From Agromyces fucosus (GTDB taxonomy: Bacteria; Actinomycetota; Actinomycetes; Actinomycetales; Microbacteriaceae): DNA of 64,000 nt. Positions 4,612-6,600 of this stretch are shown here, in pieces. The first letter of the stretch is position 1; the number at the start of each line of letters is the position of its first letter. The stretch is from assembly GCF_004134865.1 (NCBI RefSeq), contig NZ_SDPO01000001.1, positions 806,001-870,000 of the forward strand, read 5' to 3'. The notes beneath the pieces were generated by a model. That model saw nothing but the letters and a program-made list of their open reading frames with translations, was not told where the DNA came from and made no database searches. The translations under genes and the position numbers were made by a program.

Positions 4612-5649
4612 TCACTTGCCGTCGGAGTGGGAGTCCTCGGTGAAGTGCGGCACCTCGTCCATGAGCTTGTGCCCGCGCGACTTCGCGTCGTGCCGGGCCT
4701 TCAGGAGGCTCGCCACGGTCGCGACCGCCATCGCCGCGAGGATCACGCCGAGCGACATCCACGTCGAGATCTCGGGCGCCCACTCGATGTGCTCGCCGTT
4801 GTTGATGAACGGCAGCTCGTTCACGTGCATGGCGTGGAACACGAGCTTGACGCCGATGAACGCGAGGATGAAGGCGATGCCGTACTTGAGGTACTCGAGG
4901 CGCTCGAGGAGTCCGCCGAGCAGGAAGTACAGCTGACGGAGGCCCATGAGGGCGAAGACGTTCGCAGTGAACACGATGAACGGACTCTGCGTGATGCCGA
5001 AGATCGCCGGGATCGAGTCGAGGGCGAAGAGCAGGTCGGTCGTGCCGATCGCGATGAAGACGATGAGCATCGGCGTGAAGAAGCGCTTGCCGTCGATGAC
5101 CGTGCGGAGCTTGACGCCGTCGTACTCGTCGGTGATCGAGACGCGGCGGCGCAGGATCCGCACGATGAACGTGTCCTTGTCCTCGTCGTCCTCGTGACCT
5201 CGCACCTGCTGGATCGCGGTCCATACGAGCCAGGCGCCGAAGATGTAGAAGATCCACGAGAAGTTCTCGATGAGCGAGGCGCCGAGCAGGATGAAGATGC
5301 CGCGCAGCACGAGCGCGATGATGATGCCCACCATCAGCACCTCCTGCTGCAGCTTCCTCGGCACCGCGAACTTCGCCATGATGATGACGAACACGAAGAG
5401 GTTGTCGATCGAGAGGCTGTACTCCGTCAGCCAGCCGGCGAGGAATTGCCCGGCGAACTCGCCGCCCGCGAAGAAGTACATGAGGCCCGCGAAGATCAAG
5501 GCCAGCACGACGTAGAAGACGACCCAGAGGGTCGATTCCTTCATCGACGGAACGTGCGGGCGCTTCAGGACGAGCAGGAGGTCGGCGACGAGGATCAGCG
5601 TCAGGACGACGAGGGATCCGACTTCGAACCAGATGGGGAGTTCGAGCAA
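4612..5649 (-). CDS. TerC-family integral membrane protein (Mn export type)
   Basis: 345 residues from a TTG start at 5649, chosen because GAAAGG lies 6 nt upstream and the protein then begins with the family's short N-terminus before the first span. Eight or so hydrophobic helices, with the TerC signatures EYSLSIDNLFVF and FALDSIPAIFGIT carrying the acidic residues thought to bind metal, and a charged cytoplasmic loop (VRGHEDDEDKD). TerC/Alx relatives export manganese, sometimes to supply secreted metalloproteins. The upstream leader looks like a manganese riboswitch, which supports a manganese role here. Confidence 0.93.
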   Translation of the reverse strand: MLELPIWFEVGSLVVLTLILVADLLLVLKRPHVPSMKESTLWVVFYVVLALIFAGLMYFFAGGEFAGQFLAGWLTEYSLSIDNLFVFVIIMAKFAVPRKLQQEVLMVGIIIALVLRGIFILLGASLIENFSWIFYIFGAWLVWTAIQQVRGHEDDEDKDTFIVRILRRRVSITDEYDGVKLRTVIDGKRFFTPMLIVFIAIGTTDLLFALDSIPAIFGITQSPFIVFTANVFALMGLRQLYFLLGGLLERLEYLKYGIAFILAFIGVKLVFHAMHVNELPFINNGEHIEWAPEISTWMSLGVILAAMAVATVASLLKARHDAKSRGHKLMDEVPHFTEDSHSDGK

Positions 5650-5684
5650 CGTTTGCCTTTCGGAGTGTGCGGGGACGACGGAAT

Positions 5685-5800
5685 CCGAAAGTCTCTCCCC
5701 CTGCCGATTCGCAGGTCCCACGCCCGGAGCGGCGGCAATGGCGCTCGTACTGACGATCGTGGGTCGAGGCCTGGCCTCGCGGGATACTCCCCTTCGCTCT
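5685..5800 (-). promoter_or_regulatory. yybP-ykoY (manganese) riboswitch upstream of terC
   Basis: On the minus strand the leader begins GCGAAGGGGAGTATCCC and ends GGGGAGAGACTTTCGG. These match the two conserved strands of the yybP-ykoY aptamer (GGGGAGTA on the 5' side, an AGAC-pyrimidine stretch on the 3' side). CGAAGG pairs with CTTTCG to close P1. Between them lies a hairpin CGAGGCCAGGCCTCG and a GCC-rich second arm. The 3' P1 strand CTTTCGGA is also perfectly complementary to TCCGAAAG, which includes the terC ribosome binding site (5655-5662). Metal binding should therefore free the site and turn translation on. The central loop was not fitted to a covariance model. Confidence 0.8.
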
Positions 5801-5804
5801 CGCG

Positions 5805-5810
5805 AGTCTA
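5805..5810 (-). promoter_or_regulatory. Candidate -10 box for the terC riboswitch transcript
   Basis: TAGACT on the minus strand just before the aptamer; the start point would fall at the first aptamer stem. The same hexamer occurs before ilvD and upstream of tmRNA. Confidence 0.5.
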
Positions 5811-5869
5811 GCCGAACCCGGCCAGCGCCCAGGCGCCACCCGCTACAGGTTCCGTTCGACGCCCGCCAA

Positions 5870-5875
5870 TAGAAT
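5870..5875 (+). promoter_or_regulatory. Candidate -10 box for the UPF0114 gene
   Basis: TAGAAT, followed by a leader of about 20 nt that contains AAGGAG. Confidence 0.45.
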
Positions 5876-5901
5876 CGGGGTCCCCACGAGAAGGAGTGCC
5901 T

Positions 5902-6600
5902 GTGAGCTCGACACCCCCCGCCCGCCAGTACCGCACGACCCCGGGCTCGGCCCTCGTCGGCTACGCGATCTTCGCGAGCCGCTGGTTGCAGGCGCCGCTC
6001 TACCTCGGGCTCATCCTCGCCCAGGCGATCTACGTCGTCGTCTTCATGATCGAGCTGTGGCACCTCGCCGAAGGCGTGATCGCACACCCCGAGAAGATCG
6101 ACGAGGCGGACATCATGCTCGCCGTGCTCGGCCTCATCGACGTCGTGATGATCGCCAACCTGCTCATCATGGTGATCATCGGCGGGTATGAGACGTTCGT
6201 CTCGCGCATCAACGTCGACGGCCACCCCGACCAGCCCGAGTGGCTGAGTCACGTCAACGCGAACGTGCTGAAGGTCAAGCTCGCGATGGCCATCATCGGC
6301 ATCTCGTCGATCCACCTACTGAAGACCTTCATCGAGGTCGGCGACATGACCGACGGCCTGGCCAAGGGCACCGAGACCGGCCAGAGCTACAGCTCCGAGG
6401 GTGTCATGTGGCAGGTCATCATCCACTCGGTGTTCATCCTGTCGGCGCTCGCGCTCGCGCTCATCGACCGCATGTCGTACCACAAGGTCGCACCGCACGA
6501 GGTGCACGACGGAGTCCCCGTCGCATACCCCGACGCCCACCCGGGCCTGGGCACGGATCCCACGAAGCTCGAGCCCGTCGACTCCGGCTCGCACCGCTGA
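5902..6600 (+). CDS. UPF0114 (YqhA-like) membrane protein
   Basis: 232 residues from GTG at 5902, which has AAGGAG at 5891-5896 with 5 nt spacing; a GTG two codons earlier overlaps that site. Four predicted spans: LYLGLILAQAIYVVVFMIEL, ADIMLAVLGLIDVVMIANLL, VKLAMAIIGISSIHLL and MWQVIIHSVFILSALALALI. The YGTYVSR-like family motif appears as YETFVSRI after the second span. The family is widespread and of unknown function. It is divergent from terC; the shared intergenic region holds both promoters. Confidence 0.88.
   Translation: MSSTPPARQYRTTPGSALVGYAIFASRWLQAPLYLGLILAQAIYVVVFMIELWHLAEGVIAHPEKIDEADIMLAVLGLIDVVMIANLLIMVIIGGYETFVSRINVDGHPDQPEWLSHVNANVLKVKLAMAIIGISSIHLLKTFIEVGDMTDGLAKGTETGQSYSSEGVMWQVIIHSVFILSALALALIDRMSYHKVAPHEVHDGVPVAYPDAHPGLGTDPTKLEPVDSGSHR

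Follow-up and report, generated by a model that had tools for sequence, protein, structure and literature searches.

The window analysed here is a stretch of 64,000 nucleotides from Agromyces fucosus (contig NZ_SDPO01000001.1, positions 806,001 to 870,000), and all positions below are counted within it. Its minus strand carries a terC gene (4612-5649; 345 aa; PF03741, E 1.4e-51), whose TTG start codon (5649-5647) falls just beyond the 5650 edge of the region, 5650-5800, in which an earlier note made from the letters alone had seen a manganese riboswitch. Agromyces is the source of every one of the first 16 named relatives of the TerC protein, at 81-97% identity. The divergent neighbour of terC is a gene for a UPF0114 membrane protein (PF03350; 5896-6600). 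A probable -10 box, TAGACT, lies on the minus strand at 5805-5810; a TANNNT pattern starts 12-20 nt upstream of the P1.1 helix in 92 of 95 leaders, a count that includes the window and in which some genomes are entered under two locus ids. From the position of this putative box the terC transcript probably starts just before P1.1, and a consensus scan of the leader returned no two-hexamer promoter.

The leader itself, again on the minus strand, contains both conserved strands of a yybP-ykoY aptamer, as the earlier note had proposed. The 5' side, GCGAAGGGGAGTATCCC, is made up of the P1.1 5' strand CGAAGG (5796-5791), the 5' half of L1, GGAGUA (5790-5785), and the P1.2 5' strand UCCC (5784-5781), while the 3' side, GGGAGAGACTTTCGGA, runs through the P1.2 3' strand GGGA (5699-5696) and the 3' half of L1, GAGA (5695-5692), to the P1.1 3' strand CUUUCG (5691-5686), the pairing partner of CGAAGG. 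The arrangement expected of the class is present, with an outer P1.1 and an inner P1.2 flanking L1 and a P3 arm with its L3, and L1 has both the 5' GGAGUA and the GA ahead of the P1.1 3' strand. Between the two P1 strands the minimum-energy fold holds a P2 hairpin, GCGAGGCCAGGCCUCG (5765-5780), the P3 arm (5717-5763; lower helix 5763-5754/5726-5717, upper helix 5746-5742/5731-5727) with the L3 bulge UCAGUAC (5747-5753), and a P4 hairpin, CCUGC-GAAUCG-GCAGG (5700-5715). For the four-way junction, P2 and P4 are predictions from the minimum-energy fold of the window leader that stand outside the covariation counts given below, and P2 is found in the Agromyces rows of our alignment and is replaced by a short linker in the Microbacterium rows.

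Together with the following GA, the P1.1 3' strand forms a putative anti-SD strand, CUUUCGGA (5684-5691), facing the Shine-Dalgarno (SD) region UCCGAAAGG (5656-5664), in which the SD GAAAGG (5661-5656) ends 6 nt ahead of the TTG. The perfect 8-bp complementarity pointed out earlier can be read directly, CTTTCGGA (5691-5684) agreeing at every base with the reverse complement of TCCGAAAG (5664-5657). A further complementarity joins GGGGAGU in P1.1/L1 (5792-5786) to ACUCCCC (5635-5641), which begins at the end of codon 3 and takes in codons 4 and 5.

Relatives of the leader and the genes they precede

We checked the upstream regions of 110 terC loci (30, the window's own included, and 80 from a second set, with some genomes present twice), and 95 of these carry the aptamer RNA by motif. 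R1, the covariance model described below, found nothing at E<=1 in the leaders of the other 15 (L022, L028, L054, L061, L066, L067, L068, L075, L080, L089, L099, L106, L111, L112 and L114); in L114 a 13.2-bit match lies inside the gene and not in the leader. Some Microbacterium/Leifsonia terC genes of this group (L066, L075, L089, L106, L114) keep the GAAAGG SD and lack the aptamer, and the leader of L099 resembles a remnant, with GGGGTATCCCG adjoining the SD.

From 57 leaders distinct at 90% we took 46 into an alignment, A2, with 11 removed by hand (long-insert Vandammella and Lampropedia among them) and the secondary structure written by hand. In A2, 96.2% of cells in paired positions can pair, compared to 86.9% after shuffling and at most 54.0% when the partners are slid, and two-sided changes occur at 12 of 24 pairs. 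P1.1, P1.2 and P3 covary among these homologous leaders, which share the architecture of the window: the lower and upper helices of P3 show two-sided changes at 7 of 10 and 3 of 4 counted pairs, and P1.2 shows UA/CG/GC and CG/UA exchanges between 5784-5781 and 5699-5696 among the relatives, including a C-G to U-A change in two A2 rows. The more divergent sets A3 and A4, whose alignments were fitted to R1, have 94.2 and 97.5% of cells paired compared to 70.6 and 75.4% when shuffled.

R1 was built from the 46 A2 leaders. It gives the window leader 86.4 bits, a score to be read with the fact that this leader is part of the training set, and it finds the E. coli alx leader with 36.8 bits (E 2.2e-7, roughly calibrated). 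At E<=1 it matches none of E. coli mntP, L117, L125 and L126. The 219 aligned matches, which combine A2 (the training set itself), A3 and A4 (alx included), share a conserved core, with GGGAGTA in 216, CGTCANNACG around the L3 bulge in 195 and GAGAC in 213. In the genome of the window the RNA is single-copy by R1 (there is one extra match, with E 0.88). That genome has another TerC-family gene at a different place (L034), which has no R1 match at E<=1. When sampled by order, class and phylum, 111 of 248, 84 of 246 and 35 of 296 genomes have a match at E<=0.01; the three samples overlap, and the counts are likely to be lower bounds because scoring was limited to 12-15 first-look candidates per genome. 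By R1, many other actinobacteria gain, as Agromyces does, a testable candidate for a manganese-controlled exporter gene.

TerC genes lie downstream on the same strand for 187 of the 219 matches (tblastn, E<=1e-5). Two of the remaining 32 run off their contig, and the 30 that could be scanned precede genes for GDT1 (10), Na/Ca exchangers (8, one of them below the Pfam cut-off), P-type cation ATPases (4), VIT1 (2), GreA (2), PGPGW (1) and peptidase M50 (1), with nothing recognised for two. By family name, the GDT1, exchanger, ATPase and VIT genes together make up 24 of the 30; genes for TerC, GDT1 and P-type ATPases are typically involved in the export of Mn2+. The GreA-like, PGPGW and M50-peptidase genes (downstream of L280, L295, L273 and L154) are not metal transporters. 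In the Betaproteobacteria Lampropedia and Vandammella (L081, L082, L103) the same RNA type stands upstream of terC genes whose products are 71-73% identical to the window protein, which suggests that gene and riboswitch may have been transferred between phyla; inspected by eye, the SD regions of these three loci have lost their match to the 3' P1.1 strand.

The earlier note had looked to a covariance match with the Rfam family RF00080 (Manganese) as a check, and here its expectation failed. Taking the gathering cut-off of 45 bits in Rfam 15 as an operational criterion for membership, we found no match in the window, none in 5500-5950 even at a permissive E<=10 and none above the cut-off over the whole genome, and no other Rfam family reached its own cut-off on the terC leader. 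The same silence extends across the branch. RF00080 had no match above the cut-off in 60 genomes of the family (12 have matches at E<=1) or in 149 of the phylum (four have matches at E<=0.001); at the gathering cut-off it found none of 20 terC loci although 18 of these carry the RNA by motif, and among another 20 loci, each matched by R1, it gave one sub-threshold match at E<=0.1. Below its cut-off, RF00080 points to the same sites as R1 in seven loci (L115, L116, L118, L119 and L128, with L127 matched over part of RF00080 and L262 as the seventh).

Control sequences show how this result should be read. Two of 14 control genomes (not named individually) gave a match above the cut-off, and the controls matching at any level include E. 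coli and C. glutamicum. The E. coli mntP leader itself scores 41.6 bits, below the cut-off, and alx has no match at E<=1, though PMC9603457 describes the two as yybP-ykoY riboswitches under manganese control. In the RF00080 alignment to the E. coli control the 5' end is left unpaired, so that the family does not model P1.1. We therefore rejected the RF00080 negative as proof against class membership: since mntP falls below the cut-off and alx gives nothing, the silence on the window is not decisive, and RF00080 is unfit to settle the matter. What is new here is that the current Rfam model fails on the actinobacterial branch and on alx. Annotation based on Rfam will under-report Mn2+ riboswitches in Actinomycetota, because the family misses well-supported leaders, that of E. 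coli alx included.

Predicted pairing of the 3' P1.1 strand with the ribosome binding region

If the 3' P1.1 strand alternates between the aptamer and the SD, the two should change together among relatives. For each leader, 12 nt counted from the start of the 3' P1.1 strand were set against the last 30 nt ahead of the start codon; we took the longest Watson-Crick helix that the two can form, and compared it with the helices obtained when partners were swapped between leaders. The 219 matches yielded 187 with TerC, 181 after dropping six without GAGAC, and 178 distinct leaders; start codons came from TerC frames anchored by tblastn and were chosen partly by SD strength, with the anti-SD strand playing no part. 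The strand forms on average 6.19 bp with its own partner compared to 4.57 with swapped ones (sd 0.098), an own value that was not reached once in 5000 swaps. Matches of at least 8 bp occur in 44 of the 178 leaders compared to 3.7% of swapped pairings, and 112 leaders reach at least 6 bp, with fewer than six contiguous pairs in the other 66. Among the 112, the paired strand ends 6-11 nt ahead of the start codon in 83.

Part of this match is expected, since the P1.1 complement and the core of the SD are the same sequence. The P1.1 5' strand measured against its own pre-start region gives a slight excess (4.66 compared to 4.33 of 6 when swapped; sd 0.048, n=172). The strand classes differ in how often they reach 6 bp: 49 of 64 leaders with CUUUCG/CGAAAG, 37 of 42 with CCUCCG/CGGAGG, all three with CUUGUG/CACAAG and 16 of 25 with CCUUCG, whose partners are mixed, while no member does so in 14 rarer classes (30 leaders). 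In an earlier leader set two of three with CCUUGU/ACAAGG also reach it. Where the strand changes the consequences can be followed: in three Microbacterium leaders (L070, L073, L090) CUCUCG keeps P1.1 and loses one anti-SD pair, and in L017 and L020 CGUUCG breaks one pair in each of P1.1 and the anti-SD helix. The compensated P1.1/SD strand classes are in effect natural mutants with which a translational switch can be tested.

Clustering was applied to that earlier, noisier set, in which starts were those of the longest frame and some GC-rich loci were misframed (of 219 matches 211 had an open frame, and 186 were used after dropping 22 without an SD, two with an unfit distance and one duplicate). 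With one leader per cluster at 70% (97 clusters) the own pairing is 5.73 compared to 4.40 swapped, and at 62% (27 clusters) it is 5.42 compared to 4.25. At 58% the five clusters left have little power, with a median of 2.3% and at worst 25% of swaps reaching the own value. The predicted alternative pairing of an aptamer strand with the SD amounts to 8 bp in the window and is accompanied by covariation across the 178 leaders, and this comparative evidence, which argues for an SD/anti-SD helix, is new here.

Energy folding points the same way. When the leader ends at the start codon, the ensemble with the SD hairpin is 3.3 kcal/mol better than that with P1.1, but the pairs of the hairpin have a mean probability of 0.22; adding 30 nt of coding sequence widens the gap in favour of the hairpin to 9.6 kcal/mol and raises the probability to 0.97, and the hairpin is favoured from at least 15 nt of coding sequence onward. 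In a 185-nt fold the eight SD/anti-SD pairs have probabilities of 0.92-0.99. The hairpin is stronger with coding sequence because GGGGAGU (5792-5786) also pairs with ACUCCCC (5641-5635) of codons 3-5, as seen in the minimum-energy structure of the 185-nt fold. The probability of P1.1 in these nearest-neighbour folds is about 0, in models that leave out the non-canonical pairs of L1, docking and other tertiary contacts, and the metal. The folding energy of the single sequence is no better than that of shuffles (z 0.79) and is uninformative.

The first 36 nt of terC are more complementary to the L1 strand than is sequence deeper in the gene, mainly in A2 and the Microbacteriaceae. We do not claim a second OFF helix of L1 with codons 3-5 on this basis, because conserved Leu-Pro codons can explain the enrichment.

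No intrinsic terminator-like site was found in 5600-5950, in agreement with the proposal that the switch needs no terminator. With this, the strand/SD covariation and the folding with coding sequence, the exchange between P1.1 and an anti-SD hairpin that the earlier note had suggested gains support; its observation in the terC leader is confirmed, and the reading as a translational switch of the yybP-ykoY class is supported at the level of sequence comparison.

Proposed manganese control, its alternatives and known systems

In L. lactis the metal site is listed as comprising G9, U39, C40, A41, U44 and C45 (PMC9190785). The window keeps five of these six, having equivalents of G9, U39, C40, A41 and C45, and has an A at position 44, as in alx, compared to the U of L. 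lactis. By position, A 5751 of the window would be the counterpart of A41, the adenosine that binds Mn2+ in L. lactis. We infer that Mn2+ is the ligand of the terC leader.

It is very probable, in our judgement, that the leader is a manganese-sensing yybP-ykoY riboswitch with a translational ON platform. The basis for this is homology to alx, the conserved core, covariation both in the aptamer helices and between anti-SD and SD, the gene context and the lack of a terminator-like site; the ON direction, and the export of Mn2+ by the TerC of the window, are inferred. With Mn2+, docking of L1 and L3 would stabilise P1.2 as well as P1.1 (CGAAGG/CUUUCG), the outer helix that acts as the switch; with P1.1 formed, the SD would be free and TerC would be made. 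Without Mn2+, P1.1 would open and its 3' strand, together with the GA, would pair with UCCGAAAG and hide the SD.

The same class of aptamer might instead act mainly on transcription: with ribosomes kept off, transcripts would end within the leader, by Rho-dependent or pause-linked termination. This resembles E. coli mntP, where Rho is described as acting at the riboswitch (PMC11647493), and two relatives from the phylum search, L128 and L125 (the latter not an R1 match), have a terminator-like hairpin and T run directly behind GAGACC. We regard it as unlikely for the window leader, which has no such intrinsic site, and the covariation between SD and anti-SD points to translation. Less likely again is an aptamer that shares the fold but has diverged to respond to a different divalent ion or to some other condition (e.g. 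pH, Ni2+/Co2+ or Ca2+), since the equivalents of G9, U39, C40, A41 and C45 are kept and TerC, GDT1 and P-type ATPases are the genes one associates with Mn2+ export. Such a change of ligand would suit the A at position 44 and the Na/Ca-exchanger-like genes (8 of the 30 non-TerC genes downstream), and alx has been reported to respond to alkaline pH too (PMC9603457); however, alx, which that paper also reports to be Mn2+-regulated, has the same A at position 44. Finally, chance resemblance or a decayed, non-functional remnant would fit the RF00080 negative and a folding energy no better than that of shuffles, but it is contradicted by conservation, covariation and gene context across many genomes, as well as by the R1 score of the leader (itself one of the building sequences), and we give it almost no credence.

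Within the preferred reading of a translational manganese switch, a more specific and distinctly tentative suggestion is that the actinobacterial branch constitutes a sub-type of its own, largely unseen by Rfam. Its P1.1 5' strand would be an SD look-alike, so that decoy and real SD would compete for one anti-SD strand, and in Microbacteriaceae the L1 strand (GGGGAGU) may pair with codons 3-5 (ACUCCCC) as a second OFF helix. A search of the open-licence literature, by titles and abstract openings among the matches listed, gave no SD-exchange switch upstream of an actinobacterial terC.

Among known systems the closest to the window is E. coli alx, which shares GGAGUA and GAGAC in L1, the L3 bulge UCANUAC with the flank CGAUCG-UCANUACGA (the window reads CGAUCGUCAGUACGA there and alx CGAUCGUCAUUACGA), a downstream gene of the TerC family and the R1 match. 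Unlike the window it has T-rich stem-loops, no exchange of the CUUUCGGA/UCCGAAAG kind when inspected by eye, and a P1.2 that begins with a different pair. E. coli mntP offers the nearest parallel in mode of control, as its occluded RBS is established, with a translational ON switch whose RBS is inaccessible without Mn (PMC11647493); it differs from the window in its longer L3 (of the UCAACAUACU type), its MntP gene and the lack of an R1 match at E<=1. The L. lactis yybP-ykoY (PDB ID: 4Y1I) and Xanthomonas oryzae aptamers are alike in the P1.1-L1-P1.2 arm, the docked four-helix architecture, the L3 metal site with its invariant A and the use of P1.1 as switch helix, for which stabilisation by Mn2+ is established in both (PMC6754395, PMC11087558 and, for the architecture, PMC9190785). 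These two, which we liken to the window by description only, are described there as transcriptional (terminator) switches. In C. glutamicum a yybP-ykoY leader with an observed 5' end has been listed upstream of the terC gene cg2157 (49.13 bits with Rfam of 2013 or earlier; PMC3890552), a likeness to the window of class and gene only. With the P1.1 helices of X. oryzae and L. lactis, the RBS occlusion of mntP and the C. glutamicum terC leader all in print, both the riboswitch class and control by hiding the SD are already known, and the leader in the window adds a member to them.
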